A stretch of 64,000 nt of DNA from assembly GCA_910890315.1 (NCBI GenBank), contig CAJVGD010000046.1, positions 1,116,001 through 1,180,000 of the forward strand, given 5' to 3'. Every line of letters starts with the position of its first letter. Position 1 is the first letter of the stretch. Origin of the DNA: Serendipita indica DSM 11827. Lineage: Eukaryota; Basidiomycota; Agaricomycetes; Sebacinales; Serendipitaceae. Below are positions 4,042 to 54,396 of the stretch, piece after piece. The translations under genes and the position numbers were made by a program. A model generated the notes under the pieces. The model made no database searches, had not been told where the DNA came from, and worked only from the letters and a program-made list of their open reading frames with translations.

Positions 4042-5496
4042 ATGAAGCTTTCCCTCTCGCTCGCTACCGTCCTTACTCTCCTGCCGATGCTCGTCACCGC
4101 GTCCAGCTCGCCCTTTATCGAGCGTAGTATTCATGATACTGCCTATCTGGTTAGTTTTAATTTGGTTTCAATATCTTTGACACGTCTGACGAGCCGTTAC
4201 CATCGCGAATTGATCATCATTAGCCGCGGGTAGCGCGCAGGTTTGGACGCAATCCCGACATATTTGGGCGCCAAAATAATGCAGCGGATCGTGCAGCTAC
4301 CGCGCAACGCGCAGCGCAGCAAGCCGCCGCCCAAAGGGCCCAGCAGGAGCAGCAGGCCGCCATTGACCGCCAGCGAGCTGCAATCGCATCGTCTGCTGCC
4401 GCTCAGCAATCAGCGGCTGCTGAACGAAACCGCCAAGCCGACATTGCCAATGGAAACAACCGAAACGGTGGAAACGGAGGAAACCAGCAGAACAACAATG
4501 GTCAGAACAACAATAACAATAACGGTGCTACACGAACAACCTCTGCGGCTGCAGCTGCAACCACCACGGCCAATAACGGAGGCAATAACAACGGGAACAA
4601 CAATAACAACAACGGAGGGAACAACAACAACGGAGGAAACAACAACAACGGAGGAAACAACAACAACGGAGGAAACAATGGTGGAAACAATGGTGGAAAC
4701 AATGGAGGAAACAACAACAATGCCATCAGTAAGCACTCTGCGCCCTCGGTCGCTCGTACTAACGATTGCAGCACTTGATCCCTCCCTCGTCGCATCCAAC
4801 CTCGCAAAGACTGGACAAGAGACGCCAGCGGCCGGTCAAGTCGCATCTCTTACGTCTACGAACAACTTTCTCAACTTTTGCGCTGGAAAGACGATCACCA
4901 ACGGCCAGCAGATCACCACGGGCTCATGCAACCCAATTCCAATCGGCGATGTTGCGCCCAAAGCAAACATGCCTTCGTGCAAGTTTGTGAACCCGATCAA
5001 CTTTTCGACTATTCCAGCCAACAGGGACTTCACGATCCAGATGAAGTTGAACAACCTCCAAGCGGGCGTGTTCACGAATGCGCAAAGACGTACTATATGG
5101 CTCCGCAACAGCTGAATGCTCAAGGTGATATCATCGGACATACCCAGTACGTGCTCCTTTATAGTGTCTAGCTCACAGATAACTCATGCATTTGTGTAGC
5201 TTTGTCGTTCAAAAGATGGGTGCGTTTGACGACCCGACCATCCTCGACGCCGGAACGTTCCAGTTCTTCAAGGGTATCAACACCGCTGCGGTCAATGGCA
5301 TCGTGTCGACTACGGTCACCGGTGGTATTCCCCCAGGCAACTACCGCCTTGCGAGCATCAACACGGATGCTAACCATGCTCCGGCCATCGTCGCTGTTGC
5401 TCAACACGGTTTCGTGGACGACATGATTTACGTACGTCTCCCCCCTTTCGTCCACCTCTCATGCTGACGACTACTTCACAGTTTACTGCCGAGTAA
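4042..5496 (+). CDS. Secreted Asn/Gly-rich protein of the 's17-like' basidiomycete family
   Basis: Exons 4042-4149, 4224-4728, 4772-5146, 5200-5431 and 5482-5496. A signal peptide (MKLSLSLATVLTLLPMLVTA) is followed by an Ala/Gln-rich helix-like stretch, a low-complexity NNNNGG tract and a conserved C-terminal domain with CNPIPIGDV, MPSCKF, TYYMAPQQLNAQG, IIGHTHFVVQK and VAVAQHG. That domain belongs to a widespread secreted basidiomycete family often carried under the misleading label 'ribosomal protein s17'; its role is unknown. One base is missing at 5083-5087: the frame before reads FTNAQ and the frame after reads KTYYMAPQQ, both conserved. A four-A run reduced to three would explain it. 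Apart from that one base, all five exons join in phase. Confidence 0.8.
4620..4709 (+). repeat. In-frame coding minisatellite (NNNNGG x3, NNGG x3)
   Basis: Three 18-bp units encode Asn4-Gly2 and are followed directly by three 12-bp units encoding Asn2-Gly2, inside exon 2 of the secreted protein. The unit lengths keep the frame, so copy number can change without breaking the protein. Confidence 0.9.
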
Positions 5497-36432: not shown

Positions 36433-38956
36433 ATGGCCGTCGTCGGTATTGATCTCGGATGTCTCAACAGCAAGGTATGTATATGGCCTACACAGCGCTA
36501 GCCACTCTGTTAACTTTGGATTTCAAAGATTGGTGTCGCCCGCAGAAAGGGTATCGATATCATCACAAACGAAACGTCTAATCGTGCTACTCCGTACGTT
36601 ATTTAGCGTGATCGCACACTGTCTGCTCATCGTTTTCATCAGATCCCTCATTTCGTTTGGTGTCAAACAACGCGCCATCGGCGAACCCGCAAAGACGCAG
36701 GAGATTTCCAACTTTAAGAACACAGTCGGATCCCTCAAACGATTACTCGGGCGATCGGCATCTGATCCAGATATCACCGAAGTCGAGAAAAAGTTCCTCA
36801 CCGCCGCCCTCGTCGATGTAAACGGTAGTGTGGGCGTCAAGGTAAGCTTATAAAGTCTTTATATCTCATCTCTCACCGAGAAATCCAGGTCAATCTCGCT
36901 GGAGAGTCCCAACAGTTCTCCGCCACCCAGCTCGTTGGAATGTACCTAGGCAAACTCAGGGATACTGCAGCTGCCGAGCTCAAAATCCCAGTATCAGATG
37001 TTGTCATCGCGGTTCCTGCATGGTACACCGATATCCAGCGACGGGCATTGCTCGATGCCGCTGCCATTGCCTCACTCAATCCCTTAAGGATTATTAATGA
37101 AACCACCGCCGTAGCCTTGGGCTATGGTATTACAAAATCCGACCTACCGGAACCGGACAGCCCAAGACATGTCATGTTCATCGACGTAGGGCACTCAAAC
37201 ATGACTGCCACCATTGTCGCTTTTGCAAAGAACCAGCTACATGTCAAGTCAAGCGCATCCGACCGACATCTTGGCGGTCGTGATATCGACTATGCGCTCG
37301 TGCAACACTTTGCCGCCGAGTTTAAAACAAAATACAAGATTGACGTCCTATCCAACCCCAAGCGACGTTCCGTCTCATTGCCGGTTGCGAAAAGCTGAAA
37401 AAGGTTCTTTCCGCCAACGCAGAGGCAAACCTGTCGGTCGAGTCGATCATGAATGACGTCGATGCGTCGTCGCGGTTGACACGCGAAGCGCTCGAGGGTC
37501 TCATTGCCCCTTTGTTGGAGAAAGTGGCCGGTCCGATTCAGCAGGCACTCGCGGATGCTGGTCTTTCACCAGATCAGATTGATAGCATCGAACTCGTTGG
37601 AGGAAGCTCGCGAGTTCCTGCCATCAAGCATCGCATCCAGGCCATCTTTGGTGGTCGGACGCTCTCTACTACGCTCAACCAGGATGAGGCCGTCGCACGC
37701 GGTGCCACGTTTGCATGTGCCATGCTCTCTCCGGTATTCAAAGTCAGGGAGTTTAGCTATCATGATGTGGCACCTTATGCGGTCAAAGTCCAATGGGAGC
37801 CAACCGAGGAGGAACCCGAGTCGGAGTTGATCGTGTTCCCCAAGGGTAACACCGTTCCATCCACCAAGATTCTGACAACTGCGCGAAATGCGCCGTTTGA
37901 TATCGAGGCCGACTACGCGGAACCTGACAGTCTGCCCGGTGCCATCAACCCATGGATCGCCCGTGCGACGATCAAGGGATCACCTGCCGCTGGTGAAAAT
38001 CCGACATACAAGGTCAAGACTAGGATGAACGCCAACGGCATCGTCTCGTTCGAAGGTGCATACTATGAAGAGATTGAGGAGAAGGAAGACACGATGGAAG
38101 TGGATGCCAAAGAGGGTGAAGCGCCTCCCAAGAAGAAGAAGATTGTGCGAAAGAAGGATGTCCCGGTCGTTACTGGCTACGGATCCCTAGACGCCACTGT
38201 GCTCAATTCTCTGCGTGAGCAGGAAGCGTCCATGCACGCTGCGGACAAGCTTGTCAAGGATACAGAGGTATGCCTCTCAGTGCTTGTTACGAATGCCCGC
38301 TCATATTAGTTTAGGATCGCAAGAATGCCCTTGAAGAATATGTGTATGACATGCGCTCCAAACTCGATGACCGCTATGCATCGTATACTCAAGCAGAAGA
38401 AAAGGAAAAGTTGTTGAGTATGCTCTCTGCGGCGGAAGACTGGTTGTACAGCGAGGAGGGCGAGGACGCGACAAAGTCTGCGTACACCCAGCAACTTGAC
38501 AAACTCAAGGCTGTTGGAGATCCAATTGCGTTCCGCTACACCGAACACTCTGAACTCCCTCGCGCGGCATCGGCGCTCCGGGACGCGTTGAATCAATTCT
38601 ACACGCAAGCCACCTCTGGCGAGGAGCGCTACTCACACATTGCCGAAAAGGACCTAACGTCCGTCGTGGAAAAGGTGGCGACAACACAGAAATGGCTCGA
38701 CGATGCCATGGCCAAGCAGGCTGAAAAGCCAAAGAGTGTCGCGCCGGTGGTGACGACGGCAGAGATTCAGAAGAAGCGCGAGGAGCTCGTCTACTTCTGC
38801 ACGCCGATCATGACCAAACCCAAGCCCAAGCCTGCGCCAACGGAGAACCCGCCACCTCCTACATCGAATCCACCCCCTGCTCCGGCTGACGATGGAACTC
38901 CGAATGCGAGTGGGACGGGTACGCCTGCGGAGCCTCCGAATATGGACGTCGATTAG
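36433..38956 (+). CDS. SSE1: Hsp110-type chaperone (SSE1/Hsp88-like)
   Basis: Exons 36433-36474, 36529-36593, 36643-36841, 36889-38267 and 38315-38956. The Hsp70-like ATPase domain opens MAVVGIDLGCLNSK and has NETSNRATPS, INETTAVALGYGI, FIDVGHSNM and ELVGGSSRVPAIK. The substrate domain with an acidic insert (EEIEEKEDTMEV) and a long helical C-terminus ending in a Pro-rich tail mark it as Hsp110 rather than Hsp70. In yeast Sse1 is the nucleotide-exchange factor for cytosolic Hsp70. One base is missing at 37362-37365: the frame reads SNPK, then must shift to give TFRLIAGCEKLKKVLSA, a strongly conserved block. Adding one base makes exon 4 fit its phases exactly. Confidence 0.93.
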
Positions 38957-44307: not shown

Positions 44308-47300
44308 TCAAACAGATACGGTAGAAGATGATGTAGAAGACACGGGTGTAGAAGTCGATGATGAGGTCGAGGCGGAGGTGGAAGTAGAGAGGGGTGTAGA
44401 CGTCGACGTGGTTGTCGTCGAGTTTGAGGGAGTGCCAATGGTGAACACAGGCGAGAGCCAGGCATCATAGTCTTCCTCGACGTTGCGGTTGCCCGTAACT
44501 TTGAGGGATCGAATGAGGAGACGGTAAGTACCGTTGGGGATAGCAGTGCGGTTCAAGAAGCTGGTGACACGGACCCAATCGTATCCGTTGCCCTCGTCCG
44601 ACGCCACGATATGTCGTGGCTTGTACGGGAAACTCTGGACGGGGCCCACGGTTGGGACATTGAAGAAGGATCCAGAAGGGACAGTGATGCGACCGTTGTT
44701 GTTACCAAAGATGCCATTGAGCCAGTTCCAGAAGAGACCTCGCTTCTTCGCCGCCGGTGTCACGCCAGGAACTTGTGTATTGGGCATGACAAGGTCGGCG
44801 AGGAAGGATGGCGTACCTGCTGCACGACGATAGAGGATTGCTGGGTAGTCGTTGCCGATGAGCGAAAACGTCTGGTTTGGCTTGGGGACTTTGCCAGCCG
44901 AGTCGAGCAAGGCGGGGAGTTGAATGCCAAAGGACTGGGCCGTACGGTCCAAGATGGCCATGTCCTTCATCTTGGCTGCCACACCGAGGTAGGGAATACT
45001 AAACGTTTCGCCAAGACTCGAGCTAATAGTCACAAAGCCGGAGTAGATGGGGAACGTTTTCGGATCGACGCCTGCCGGAGGCTGGATGCTGAGAATGAAG
45101 CCATTGAAAAAGCCAGGCCAGACGGTAAACTTCTGCGACAAGATGGAGACGGACGCGGCTTGCGACGACGTGGGGAGAGGAGAGGTATACGGGAGCTTGG
45201 TGGCGCTGTTGATAGTAGAGATTGTCAAACCGGGTGTATGTGAGACGGTATAGGTGACGGATTTTTTGGTGGGGTTGGAGAGAGTGATGATTTGCACATT
45301 GTTGCCGTACGCAGTATCGTTCAAGAGTAACTCGCTCGTAGATACGACGGTTCGTGCGTGAATGGCATTGTACACGTTGATGAGTCCAGCGCCCTGTTGA
45401 GCGACGCTCACATAAGGCGCACCATCGGCCGTGGATGCGGGCACCATCATCGCAGTGTTTTGGAGTGCCTTTTTGACACTTCGAGCAGTCTTATCACCCT
45501 TTCCACGGGCAGAAAGGTAGAGGGCTGCAGAACCTGCGACAAAGGGAGTGGCCATGCTGGTACCGCTCGACACACCCCAGCCACCAAAGGCACGGGGGAT
45601 AGTGCTGAGAATGTTGCCTCCAGGAGCGACGACTAGAGGGACCGTGTCAAAGTCAATTGATAGTGGAACAGGTCGACATACCGGCTGGTTTGATCCGCAG
45701 GTCGTAAGTTGGGCCCATACCCGAGTATGTCGAGATGAGACCTCCACCCGGGATCTCGGTAAAGCCGGGTGCAGTGGACTTCAACAGGTTAGAAGGGAGC
45801 ACATTGAAGACAGAGTTTCATACCGGAGAGAACGTGACTTTCACATTGGCTCCAGAAGCAAACGAGTTGACGAGCTGAGGATTGGTTAGCTCTCAAACTG
45901 CAAAAGAGGTTAGTCTCCTACATAGACTCCGTCTTCCGCTCGAATCAGAACTGCAATGTAACCTCCCGAAGAAATGATACCAAGCGCGCTTCCATCACTA
46001 ATAGGCGTCAATTGAAAGTCCAAGGAGCAAGATAGATGCATACTTGTAAAGGAAGAAATACTTGGCACCCTTTGCTGCAGCATTTGCAAACTTGGTCGCA
46101 ACTGAGCATCCACCGCGACGAATGACAACGAGGTAGCCAGCAAGATTGGGCGTGTTGGCGGGAAGAGGGTTGCACGCATCATTGGTGATGGTCACGTCCG
46201 TCGAAGTGGCATAGACGGGCAAGCTGCCTGAGACTGGGAAAGCACGGAGCGAAAAGTACGGAATAGGTGCGTGGCCATCGGAGAGCGTTACGTTGATACT
46301 CGGGAGGACAGAGCTTACGATATGTCAGGGGGTGCATTGGGAGCGGGTGGCGTGTCCTTACTTTTCAACGGAACCAACGGCAATGACATCGTCTCCGCTC
46401 GCGGGAGCAGGAGTGTTCCATGCACCCATTTGACCATCGTTTGTACTGGGACCATCAGTCGCGCGTCTATAAGAAAGAGGAAAGGTATACGGACAGACTG
46501 GCAGTAACAACTCGTCCTTTCTTTGCAATGCGAGACGCAACGACACCAGTTGTGCTAGTGCTCCACCTAGAGACGGTCAGAGCCACGGTTTGATCCTAGA
46601 ATCAGGGAGCATACCCAGAACCAGAGCTGAGAGAGCTGCGAAAAGAAGTCAGCATTCCTTGCACGGAGTAGATGATGTACGTACAGCGTAATGACATCGT
46701 TTCCATCGCGATATGCCCTGAGGAGAGCTTCTACAACCACACTATAGGATGTCAAATCGTGCCAGAAAAGCTTTGAAACAGTACTCACGGGTCTTGCGCG
46801 GTACCAGTGCAGCCAAGGACTCGATATGCATAAATGGATGACTTGTATGCGACTCCAGTAATGTTGTAAATGTTTCCTGGCTGCGCAGCAATGATGCCAG
46901 CAACATGAGTTCCATGGCCTGTCCAAGATTAGGCACTTTGGTCGAATTTACACCGCACTATCATACCATAGCATCTAAAATCAAAATGTCAGCAAAGAGC
47001 TCTATCTACTATTTTCAACCAACGCCCGCGACTCGACCGAGAATTGTGCGCCTCGGTGTCTGCGGACGGCAGCAATGAGCGACAGGAAAAGGCACATACG
47101 TGTCCATTGGGTCGTCATCTGGGACTGGAGTATTGCCTCCGGTGTACGCGTCGCCTACGAAATCGTAGCCTCCCTTGACGAGGAAGTTACTCCCGATACC
47201 GCCGCCGAGGCCTAGACGACGAGCACCAAATTAGCTAAAATGAAAGCACGCCAAAGTTACGAGAAGGCGCACTTGGGTTGAGATAGTCGATACCGCTGTC

Positions 47301-49655: not shown

Positions 49656-52600
49656 TCACACTCGAGTCTCTTTTCGAACCTTTGTCCATGAGAGACCACA
49701 CTGAAAACGAGTGAAGTCGAGCTTGGTCGCACGGAAAGAACTGGCTGTCGGCATAGTCAAGAGGAGGCGCGAGTATTGCAACCCATGTCGATTGTCCGGA
49801 GGTACCCAGAAGAGACGTTTCCCGGAAGATTGAACCCAGCCATCGTGTAAAAGTGAGCACTGTTTGAACCCAGGTATATTGATTGTCAGTTGGGTGCCCG
49901 GGAGATCTTCACTGTGATCTGAGAGTGTAGACTCTCCGTCATCCTGGATGGTGTTCTCTGCATCTCCTGGTACTTGTCAGGTCACGTCCCATAACCAAAG
50001 ACAAGGCAATCTAGACTCACCAGCGCCAACCTCCCACAGTCGAACCGTCTTGTCAGAGGAGCCGGAGACAATTCGTGAGCCATCTGGGGAGAACGCGACC
50101 GCCCAGACCGATGATTCATGGCCTCTGAGTGGCTCTCCCAATGGCTGACCAGTGACTGCACTCCACAATCGAACTGTCTTGTCCTCCGAGCCAGAGACAA
50201 TTATTGAACCGTCTGGTGAGAAGGCAATGCTGTTTACCCAATGCTCGTGACCGCTGAGTGGTTCCCCCAGTGAAGCACCAGTGGCATTCTCCCAGAGTCG
50301 AATTGTATTGTCCGACGAGCCAGAGGCGATTCGTAAACCATCCGGTGAGAAGGCAACGGCATTTACCCAATTTTCGTGGCCTATAAGCGGCGCTGCCAAT
50401 GGCTGTCCATTTTTTGTATTCCATAGTCGAATTGTATTGTCCGACGAGCCAGAGACAATTTGTGAGCTGTCTGGTGAGAACGCGACCGAGTTGACCCAAT
50501 CTGAGTGACCTCTGAGTGGCTCTCCTATTGACTGTCCAGTGATTGCATCCCACAACCGGATCGTACTGTCGGACGAGCCAGAGACGATTTGTGAGCCGTC
50601 GGGGGAGAATGCGACGGCCTTGATCCAATCCTCGTGGCCATTGATTGGTTCTCCAAATGGCTCACCAGTTACTGCATCCCACAGCCGAACCGTCTTGTCA
50701 GACGAGCCAGAGACGACTCGTGAGCCATCTGGAGAGAACATAATGGCGTTAACCGAATATTCATGGCCGCTGAGTGGCTCTCCTAACGACTCGCCAGTAA
50801 CTGCATCCCAAAGTCTGATTGTCTTATCAGATGAGCCAGAGACTATTTTTAAGCCATCTGGAGAGAATGCGACAGCCCGGACGGAGTATTCGTGGCCTCC
50901 GAGTGGCTCTCCTAATGAGTGACCGGTGCTTGCATCCCACAGTCTGATTGTCTTGTCGGATGAACCAGAGACAATTCTTGAGCTGTTGGGGTCGAAGGCA
51001 ACACTCGAAACCGAATCATCGTGGCCACTAATTGGCTCCCCCGATGACTGACCAGTGGCCGCATCCCACAGTCGAAGCGTACCGTCGGAGGAGACAGAGA
51101 CGATTTGTGAGCCACCTGGGGAAAACGCAACTGCGTTGACCACATCGTTGTGGCCTCTGATCGCCTCTCCTAATGGCTCGCCAGTGAATGCATCCCACAG
51201 TCGAATCTTCTTGTCAGACGAGCCAGAGACGATGCGTGAACCATCTGGCGAGAAAACGGCGGTGTTAACTGAATATTCATGGCCTTTGAGCGGCTCGCCC
51301 AACGATTCGCCAGTGACTGCGTCCCACAGGCAGATCATCTTGTCTTCCGAGCCGGAGACAATTCGCGAACCATCTGGTGAGAACGCGACGGCCCGGACCG
51401 AATATTTGTGACCTTTGATTGGCTCCCCCAATGAATGACCAGTGGATACATCCCAGAGCCGGATTGTCTTGTCTTTTGAACCAGATACAATTCGTGACCC
51501 GTCTGGCGAGAATATGACAGCGTTGACCCAACCGTCGTGACCTTGGAGTGGCTCTCCTAAAGGTACGCCAGTGGCTGCATCCCACAATCTTATCGTGTTG
51601 TCCTTCGAGCCCGAGACGATATGTGAGCCGTCCGGCGAGAATGCGATGGCCACAACTGAGTCTTCATGCCCTCGAAGTGGTTCCCCTAATGGCTGACCAG
51701 TGTATGCATCCCACAGCCTGATCATCTTGTCGGACGACCCAGAGACAATTTTTGAGCCATCTGGCGAGAATGAAACGGCGTTGATCCATCCTTTGTGACC
51801 TTCAAGGGTTTTGGGTAACCCAGGGTACACCTTCTCAAGCCCTTGTGTCACAGTGAGGGTTTCGATATACTTTTCTATACCCCCGATATGAAGATTTGTC
51901 TTCGTGGGAGTAAATGGAAGTGCGGAGATGTAGATATGGGGTGCACTGTCCTGGATGGGGACTGAAAATGCGATGATAAACCGTCGGATCTCGTTCATAC
52001 TATTTTTGGCTCCTTCTTCAAGCTATTTATTGCATAAGTCTCAGTTTCTTTGGGATATATCGCTCACTTCTGTGTTTGTAACCGCTTTAAGACCGGCTAT
52101 CGCTCGTGGCACTCCCCGGATGAAGCTCAGTATCTCCATCCAGTGTAGCACATGTGGGACTTGAATAAGGCTCTGAAGCTCCCTCTTGAGCGTAAACCGC
52201 CAGTTGTCGGTTGTTTCCGCAACATGAAACAACCAATGAGAGCTGGCATATCGAAGTCGCCTAGATATGAACTCTGATATTTTGGCGTCGAGGTTTGGGA
52301 TCTCCCTATTTAGGTAGAAAGATGACTCGATTTGACATATGTTGAACCTAAGTCCCTCATTTCGTGACTTGAGGCGGTTGAGACACCACGATGCAACCTG
52401 ACCATGCGCGTTGGCAATATTGATGTGTAATTTTTGGTGGCCATCGACGCCCTGGGTGATAGAGCACCGTCGAAGGAACTCAACGAGGGTAGGGTGTCGA
52501 AATTGGATAAGCTTTGTGGTTCTATCCTCGGTAAGTACACTTCCAAGATTCCTCACGAATGCCTTCGCGCTCCCCTCTACTCCAGCGTGCTTCAGGATAT

Positions 52601-54396
52601 CGTCGAGATCATCGGAGGTGAGAGGCTCAAATGCGGCGAGTAGCAGAGCGAGCATTTGATACATGACCGCGTGGTACTCGGGGTCTGTGCGCTCGAAGAT
52701 GAGAGTATATAGATCATCCATGGCTCCAGCCTGGCCCATGGACATCAGACGATTGTATATGATTCCCGGAGGGCTCAAACTGGTCTCGCTATTGAGCATT
52801 CGACATGCGGTGCTTGCCCAGATGAACAATCCGTTGGCTTTTTTGACAAGCCTCTGCTTCTTATCCTCCGAGAGTATATCATCTAGTGACTGATATACAT
52901 AGACCGCAATGTCGTCGACATTATCGCGATGTCTGACGTCGTGAAGGCGATCTTCCAACTTGGCCTTGATTGAGAGCGACCCTAAGACTGCTTGCACGAC
53001 AGGGTCAGGTCGACTCGTCATGAATATCCTGAGGTTTTTGTTTTGTCGAACAGCGGTCGAAAGAGTGTCAACTAGCTCTCTTCGCTGTGGTCCAGATCTA
53101 CATTCGTCCAGGGCGTCTATGACGAGGATTACACGCCTTTGTTGATGACAAATAGGGTAGACGACAAGCGTCTGAAATTGCTCGTCAATAGAGCTTCGTA
53201 TAACAGACGGATTTCGCTTCACGGCTCCAGCAACGTGCGGTGCGAGCTCAGGGATGTACTGAACAAGGTCTCTTGCTATGGTGGAGCAGAATTTGTCGGT
53301 GGTCGATCCTTCATTGCTTGCTATAGAGAAGAAGAATTGACCGCCTAGCACCCCCTCTCCTCGCCATTTTTCCACTGCAGACATTGCGACTGTGGACTTG
53401 CCGGAGCCGGCTATGTCACAGAGCCAAAATATAGGCTTCTCCGACGTTTTATCATCGGCCCACTGCCAGATCGTCTGAAGAACAGCCTTACGTGTTCCTT
53501 CCAGGCATGTGCGATGGACTGAGGATGGGACAAATGCTACGATTGGCAGTTGAAGTATAGCAGCAGTGTCGACTTGGGGTGCTAAGCAAGCGTCTAGTTG
53601 TAGGAAATTCCAGCTTACCCTCCGTCAAAATGGTCTCCACATTAGCCTTGGTAACCTCCATGTCTCCTTTGGTAACCTTGATGTCCCGTTTGATGGCTTG
53701 AACATGTATCCCAGTGCAAAGCCCCAATGCCTCCTATATTTACGATGAGCTTATGAATAGGACTGATAAAGATCGCACCATGAACTGCCGATGTCGATCC
53801 TGATATCTCGGCTGAGTTTGAGAATCTCTCCCGCATCAATTTTCACTTTTCTGAACGCTGTAAAGATGCCGGTTTTGCTGCGTTTCTTCTTGAGATCGAC
53901 AACAGTATCATACATAATTTCGAGGAATCTGCCTCGCTCAGCATATAGAAACTAACACGGGCTATTCACGTACTCAACATAGTGGATGAGCGGCTGGCTG
54001 AACGCCTTGTCTACGGCACCGTCCCCGTGATATGTCTCGAACAAGGCGACTTGATCCTCGAGCGCGGAGATATATTCTTTCAAACGTAGCCCGAGGTTGT
54101 TCCATTCTTCTTGGTTGTTCTCCGTTGCCTACTGCGTTGATTAGGGTGAAGCTACCCCAACTTGGCCAACTCGCCTGTATAACTTCGAGGATGGACTTTG
54201 TTGTCCGACACGCCGCCTTCAGAGGAGAAAGTACGTCTGATCCCTCGGCTATATTGGCCGCTACGTCGAGGCTGATGTTGACTATGTCGTACACTTGATT
54301 CCTCTTGCTTGATGAGGCTGGTGCGAAAGACGTGGAAGCCGACGGATTCATAACTCCTCTCTGTTTCTTGGAGTTTAATGCCGTTTCAGCCGACAT
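49656..54396 (-). CDS. NACHT-WD40 NLR-like receptor (HET-E/NWD type)
   Basis: Seven exons (54175-54396, 53974-54128, 53779-53928, 53619-53733, 52068-53572, 50021-52022, 49656-49966) give about 1486 residues. An N-terminal helical domain (MSAETALNSKKQRGVMNPSA) precedes a NACHT NTPase: Walker A CDIAGSGKSTVAMSA, Walker B RVILVIDALDEC, sensor MTSRPDP. A helical region, then 14 WD40 repeats of 43 residues, then a conserved cap (QCSLLHDGWVQSSGKRLFWV). Fungal NACHT-WD40 proteins act in self/non-self recognition; ligand binding by the WD40 part is thought to trigger NTP-driven oligomerisation. Intron 1 begins GC. One base is missing in exon 3 at 53799-53800 (RDI then DRHRQFMEALGL); adding it makes all phases fit. 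Confidence 0.9.
50033..51806 (-). repeat. 14 tandem 129-bp WD40-coding repeats
   Basis: Each unit encodes a GH-x3-V start, then a variant of AVAFSPDGSRIVSGSSDKTI, then RLWDA-x-TG and GEP. Units are highly alike at DNA level, implying recent amplification or gene conversion. Fourteen repeats equal two seven-bladed propellers. Confidence 0.95.
53641..53682 (-). repeat. Two 21-bp coding repeats in the NLR linker
   Basis: Consecutive 21-bp units encode KVTKGDM/EVTKANV-like heptads between the N-terminal domain and NACHT. A further diverged heptad lies on each side. Confidence 0.7.

Follow-up and report, generated by a model that had tools for sequence, protein, structure and literature searches.

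Background

Well-described counterparts of the gene presented here are HET-E, HET-D and HNWD of Podospora anserina, which likewise encode a NACHT domain followed by WD40 repeat units. A double seven-bladed propeller has been proposed for HET-E, and the units of HNWD genes are more than 80 to 100% identical (PMC12222747). Positive selection has been reported at codons 7, 9, 25 and 27 of the HET-E unit (Paoletti 2007, PMC1805685). Here we analysed a window of 64,000 nucleotides from Serendipita indica DSM 11827 (= Piriformospora indica), a member of the Sebacinales (assembly GCA_910890315.1, contig CAJVGD010000046.1, positions 1,116,001 to 1,180,000). On its minus strand, the window carries a predicted NACHT-WD40 gene (NWD-type NOD-like receptor, NLR) of seven exons at 49656..54396. 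Its repeat units are about 66% identical, in contrast to those of the HNWD genes, and we consider it probable that the gene encodes a receptor with old, diverged units, likely a HET-E-like sensor of non-self. Within a family already known to be expanded, it is a diverged and unremarkable member, and its importance lies in the contrast with sister genes of the same architecture.

The strain is a mutualistic root symbiont and most likely a heterokaryon, as judged from 2.6 single-nucleotide polymorphisms per kb and from its DNA content (PMC3192844). The genome paper counted 99 NACHT-WD open reading frames and proposed a non-self role for them (Zuccaro 2011, PMC3192844). A broad survey listed 274 NLR candidates in S. 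indica, its highest number, and described HeLo-like and SesB-like ends on two P. indica NLRs (Dyrka 2014, PMC4986451). The NWD expansion has thus been in print since 2011, and the window gene is a further member of it. In the present assembly, the NACHT family occupies at least 84 places, the window gene included, and the other 83 are 62–75% identical to its NACHT exon; 84 of 320 candidates were scored, and the count is a lower bound. The N-terminal and NACHT part of the window gene is also represented by a deposited protein from an earlier assembly of DSM 11827 (P0121), with 99% identity over 74% of the 527-residue query. This deposited model (616 amino acids) stops short of the repeats, and exon 3 of the window copy has a frameshift. 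One sister NACHT exon (L021, G000:C44:1069334-1070836) lies on the same contig, approximately 97 kb from that of the window.

The repeat array of the window gene

Exon 6 (50021..52022) encodes a linker and exactly 14 WD40 units, with 13 spacings of 43 amino acids, no stop codon and the first GH codon at 51800, as supported by unit calls, Pfam, paralog alignment and a structure model. The original prediction, made from the letters of the window, had counted these 14 repeats correctly. It had also called them near-identical, and here it was mistaken. Over the 91 unit pairs, mean identity is 69.6% in DNA (58–82%) and 65.7% in protein (51–84%). Silent divergence is high, with a mean proportion of differing synonymous sites (pS) of 0.57, a dS of approximately 1.1, and five of the 91 pairs saturated. 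Protein-level likeness of repeats alone is a poor guide to concerted evolution, and silent sites need to be checked as well. NLRs with high internal conservation have been defined by repeats more than 85% identical in amino acids over at least 100 residues (Dyrka 2014, PMC4986451). In the window array, no pair exceeds 85% over the 43 residues and one of 91 does so over the first 40, which places the array outside this class. It also shows no sign of the concerted repeat evolution of the HNWD genes.

The comparison with other arrays of the genome paints a similar picture. For this we used the 29 best-scoring of the 83 other places, of which 17 were covered only in part (5–9 units found). Units 1–13 of the window array are 0.71 alike among themselves and 0.64–0.72 alike to the units of these paralogs, reaching at least 0.71 for 4/29; they resemble the units of one sister locus, L010, as much as one another. 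In a tree of units, the 14 window units require 11 changes of label (13.8 for shuffled labels), and those of L010 require three. This tree is a blunt measure: homogenised genes that have near-duplicates stay ungrouped too (L013 14/14, L015 13/14, L031 8/8), and some low-identity arrays are fairly well grouped (L037 3/9). Overall, the window array shows no sign of homogenisation.

Two ordered patterns were also considered. A blade order common to the window gene and its paralogs was rejected, as same-index and off-index identity lay within 0.02 of each other in 29/29 comparisons; the only hint of such an order came from L034, where four of the five recovered units matched best at the same index. 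A duplication of a four-unit block (units 3–5 versus 7–9) was likewise rejected, being only weakly suggested by a mean identity of 0.71 at lag 4 against 0.636–0.705 at other lags. Units 5 and 9 are 82% identical.

Homogenised arrays in sister genes

The 29 paralog arrays fall into two classes. Mean DNA identity among units is 0.80–0.92 in 15 of them and 0.64–0.73 in the remaining 14, with none between, the cut at 0.80 having been chosen after the values were seen. The homogenised class has a mean synonymous diversity (piS) of 0.14 and an overall ratio of nonsynonymous to synonymous diversity (piN/piS) of 0.72. Relative to mean piS, piN reaches 3.55, 3.49, 3.07, 2.97 and 1.62 at unit positions 5, 7, 23, 4 and 25, respectively, with bootstrap intervals above 1. 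The codon counts leave out units that contain stops or have cut ends. We take positions 5, 7, 23 and 25 to be the counterparts of HET-E codons 7, 9, 25 and 27, a mapping of our own that goes through the HET-E consensus and through printed residues. On this mapping, the hypervariable sites of Podospora HET-E occupy the same unit positions as those of the homogenised S. indica genes.

The excess recurs across lineages. In six homogenised lineages, pooled piN/piS at the four sites is 3.98, 3.38, 2.36, 1.58, 2.78 and 4.09, against 0.87, 0.95, 0.16, 0.26, 0.33 and 0.36 for all unit positions other than 4, 5, 7, 23 and 25. Position 4 exceeds 1 as well in most of these lineages. With end units and duplicates removed, the pooled four-site ratio is 2.35–8.54 and that of the rest of the unit 0.27–1.05, the latter maximum occurring in L025; position 4 then drops to 0.00 in L034. 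On the lineage average, all four sites rank within the top five positions (P 4e-5, assuming exchangeable positions), and the same holds individually in four of the six lineages. Pairs of units within an array are not independent, which the bootstrap over arrays and the count over six lineages ease and do not remove. Among the arrays compared here, only in the homogenised ones can excess amino-acid change be detected at the HET-E-equivalent codons. Sister genes within one genome show the Podospora pattern of homogenised repeats in which amino-acid changes are concentrated on the corresponding codons. Our searches among openly licensed papers showed no study that tests WD repeats of S. indica for codon selection. 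Such tests have been described for ANK and TPR loci of Podospora, and variable positions were mapped in two ascomycete proteins (Dyrka 2014, PMC4986451).

Phylogeny explains part of this pattern. In a tree of 30 NACHT exons, the window gene belongs to a supported set of nine, in which seven others have low-identity arrays and L010 is homogenised. On this tree, the label 'homogenised' requires five changes, three of them forced by supported (starred) branches, versus 10.4 for shuffled labels (as low in 1/500). Because 10 of the 15 homogenised arrays fall into a single clade whose end branches are mostly short, recent duplication accounts for part of the homogenised pattern. Separate homogenisation is needed for the older lineages, namely L010, L025, L034 and the L029/L038 pair. 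L013 and L015 have two identical 129-base units in common, reflecting either a recent duplication or an exchange of repeats.

The 12 paralogs for which extra sequence was taken have 14 units in seven cases, 11–15 in four and 20 in one, the count of 11 for L021 omitting a 267-base spacing that possibly hides one missed unit. The 20 units, more than the usual 14, belong to L011 together with L040, where the array may extend past the examined end. When 12 database proteins were compared with the present assembly, array columns were recovered for only six, too few for a test. Differences per array column were 3/387 for L032, 0/469 for L021, 0/148 for L014, 0/111 for L022, 0/80 for L031 and 0/387 for L028, whose database protein derives from this same assembly. 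No array columns were obtained for L018, L020, L026, L029, L034 and L035, and a thirteenth protein, P0121 of the window locus, lacks the array.

Selection on the window gene

The original prediction had proposed concerted evolution together with diversifying selection for the window gene. This fits 15 of the 29 sister arrays and is not supported for the window gene itself. Overall piN/piS of the window array is 0.36. Pooled over positions 5, 7, 23 and 25 it is 0.76, with silent sites near saturation, and the 14 other low-identity arrays range from 0.68 to 1.35. The variable triplets that the prediction had read directly after the GH motif are correct (the triplet of unit 1, which it did not quote, is KGW). 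Their equation with the fast-evolving HET-E sites holds for position 5 only, as the triplets cover positions 3–5 and the HET-E sites lie at 5, 7, 23 and 25.

That the window gene is nevertheless under concerted evolution, with diversifying selection at surface codons, is very improbable. Such a history would agree with its 14 units, with variable residues at positions 4, 5, 7, 23 and 25, with the 12 distinct combinations of four-site residues among the 14 units, and with a pattern that is real in sister genes. It is at odds with the silent divergence between units and their equal likeness to those of L010, as well as with a four-site ratio below 1 and with off-face positions that are just as variable, bearing in mind that saturation removes the power to detect past selection. 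The array gives no sign of diversifying selection, which, with its silent sites almost saturated, is a lack of evidence and not a proof of absence.

Constraint, in contrast, is evident. Median dN/dS of the NACHT exon is 0.139 in the 29 pairs that include the window gene and 0.141 in 385 other pairs (dS 0.3–2.5), by which relaxed selection on the NACHT domain was rejected. Both the NACHT domain and the propeller scaffold of the window gene are under purifying selection. Since overall piN/piS of the array is low despite silent saturation, constraint has outlasted homogenisation. The array may have dropped out of the pool of homogenising exchange long ago and still have remained under selection.

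Purifying selection on 14 blades that show no sign of homogenisation would also suit a receptor or scaffold of fixed specificity, in which each blade is conserved for one ligand, rather than a fast-evolving allorecognition gene. Fourteen of the 29 sisters resemble the window gene in this respect. Binding-face positions 7 and 23 are, however, still among the four most variable of the window array, in a comparison made within S. indica only. We regard fixed specificity as possible, though rather doubtful. Equally tentative is the idea of two modes within one family. Homogenised arrays would diversify at the HET-E codons, and non-homogenised ones would keep 14 conserved blades of fixed specificity, with one nucleus carrying a broken copy of the window gene. 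A switch of mode, as in the five changes (three forced) on the 30-gene tree, would let the fungus fix a rapidly evolving sensor, or free a fixed one to evolve again. Sensing of non-self is the likely role of the family as a whole. Its genes are well suited to studying what is recognised by basidiomycete NLRs, and the two classes of arrays are matched cases for studying the purpose of repeat exchange.

The frame break in exon 3

Exon 3 (53779..53928), delimited by paralog alignment, differs by one base from all 28 alignable paralogs (of 29; L029 could not be aligned). The resulting frameshift is predicted to end translation ahead of the NACHT exon, so that no open frame runs from ATG to stop in the window copy. 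The original prediction did not remark on this break, and had picked a non-homogenised member of the family. P0121 keeps its reading frame across exon 3 and has three amino-acid differences from the window gene elsewhere. The frame break is either a difference between two nuclei or an error of this assembly, and the intact reading in the older assembly may be the allele of the second nucleus of the heterokaryon.

A serious possibility, somewhat short of probable, is that the break is just an assembly error and that both nuclei carry a normal, intact NWD gene at this locus, which is compatible with the receptor proposed here. The in-frame older protein points in this direction, as do off-frame unit spacings in 8/29 sister arrays of this assembly. 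The three amino-acid differences of P0121, in contrast, are those expected of a second allele, and the break site lies outside any homopolymer. The off-frame spacings themselves (127, 128, 256 and 257 bases) occur in L010, L011, L015, L017, L025, L027, L030 and L031, some with stops inside units, and may represent pseudogenes, splice sites or assembly indels.

A frameshift private to the window copy among the 28 alignable paralogs could also mark a decaying pseudogene, which lost homogenisation through loss of function. This is improbable given the open frames of 527 and 681 codons without a stop, a NACHT dN/dS no higher than in the sisters, the low piN/piS of the array despite silent saturation, and the in-frame protein of the older assembly. 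Because dN/dS of the NACHT exon matches that of other pairs, any loss of function would be recent.

Predicted structure and function

Fourteen units had been expected to make two full propellers, and structure prediction supports this, with the array modelled as two seven-bladed propellers. The AlphaFold2 model has a mean predicted local distance difference test (pLDDT) of 83, with a dip in confidence between units 7 and 8. With a predicted template modelling score (pTM) of only 0.50, the model does not fix how the halves are oriented to each other. The best Foldseek rows include the double propellers 2ymu, Apaf-1, Pwp2 and AIP1, at TM-scores of 0.4–0.57 by query length and a root-mean-square deviation (rmsd) of 8–14; such TM-scores mean that no joint superposition of both halves was reached. 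The best match in the PDB by both Foldseek and sequence is 2YMU, a WD-40 repeat protein with a highly repetitive propeller, which is 46% identical over 602 columns and aligns with a TM-score of 0.49 by query length and an rmsd of 9.0, again without both halves superposed. In a third protein search, the best 120 matches were generic WD40 proteins, and the window array was not among them.

Apaf-1 resembles the window gene in joining an NTPase motor to WD40 propellers. For the repeats, both profile and fold searches gave a match to it; for the NACHT part of P0121, there was a weak match of fold. The motor of Apaf-1 is an NB-ARC rather than a NACHT domain, and its N-terminus carries a CARD.

Within the model of the array, unit positions 3–5 precede strand a, position 7 is at the start of strand a, and positions 23–25 lie in the b-c turn. 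The corresponding places in HET-E have been reported to form the interaction surface (PMC1805685). By analogy, a ligand would be held between the two propellers, and its binding might release the NACHT motor, probably with oligomerisation. The motor could then drive the helical N-terminal part in cell death. Cell death as the output is taken over from other NLRs of fungi, because the N-terminal domain is without a Pfam match in P0121 and its model is of low confidence.

Several observations weigh against reading the gene as a diverged, HET-E-like non-self sensor. Its units cluster slightly more than shuffled labels on the blunt unit tree, and the copy as assembled would stop before the NACHT domain. 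Nowhere in the window array is piN/piS clearly above 1, the highest value being 1.17 at position 33, and the off-face positions 33, 43 and 17 vary as much as those of the proposed binding face. Even in the homogenised sister arrays, position 25 is the weakest of the sites, with 0.63 in L029/L038 and a rank outside the top five in two of the six lineages. The missing Pfam match and the low-confidence model of the N-terminal domain count here as well. We still consider the sensor probable.

Gene model and neighbouring features

The original prediction had placed a NACHT gene at these coordinates, which is borne out by an ATG at 54396 and a stop at 49656 in the list of open reading frames and by Pfam. 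Exon borders come from open reading frames, from splice sites in the paralog alignment and from P0121, whose exon joints agree with the window gene for exons 1–5. Exon 1 (54175..54396), the start of the N-terminal helical domain, is matched in 19/19 plus-strand paralog loci, and exon 2 (53974..54128) continues this domain. The predicted intron between them (54129-54174) has a GC-AG border. Exon 4 (53619..53733) encodes a helical linker. The N-terminal part of P0121 has no Pfam match up to E=1, and a HET domain, which is N-terminal in Podospora HNWD, is absent from its full list of Pfam matches. This part is helical in the low-confidence model, a putative effector domain to which neither Pfam nor the fold gives a name.

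Exon 5 (52068..53572) encodes the NACHT NTPase with its P-loop (GSGKS) and the region behind it, and has its relatives at the 83 other places. Pfam matches are NPHP3_N (3e-26, 92.9 bits) and NACHT (8e-11, 42.5 bits, cut-off 26.7). With this P-loop-bearing NACHT domain and with C-terminal WD40 repeats predicted to form propellers, the gene has two of the features of fungal NWD-type NLRs, whose N-terminal effector domains are HeLo-like, SesB-like, HET or of other kinds. Exon 7 (49656..49972), based on its open reading frame and the paralog alignment, adds a C-terminal extension of approximately 105 amino acids with no Pfam match at E 0.1.

Around 4 kb downstream of the receptor, the window contains a minus-strand subtilase exon (44308-45780) with a Peptidase_S8 and an Fn3-like domain. 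Further features are a plus-strand Hsp70 fragment (37344-38309) and an AAC-rich tandem repeat with units of 12–36 bases (4571-4714).

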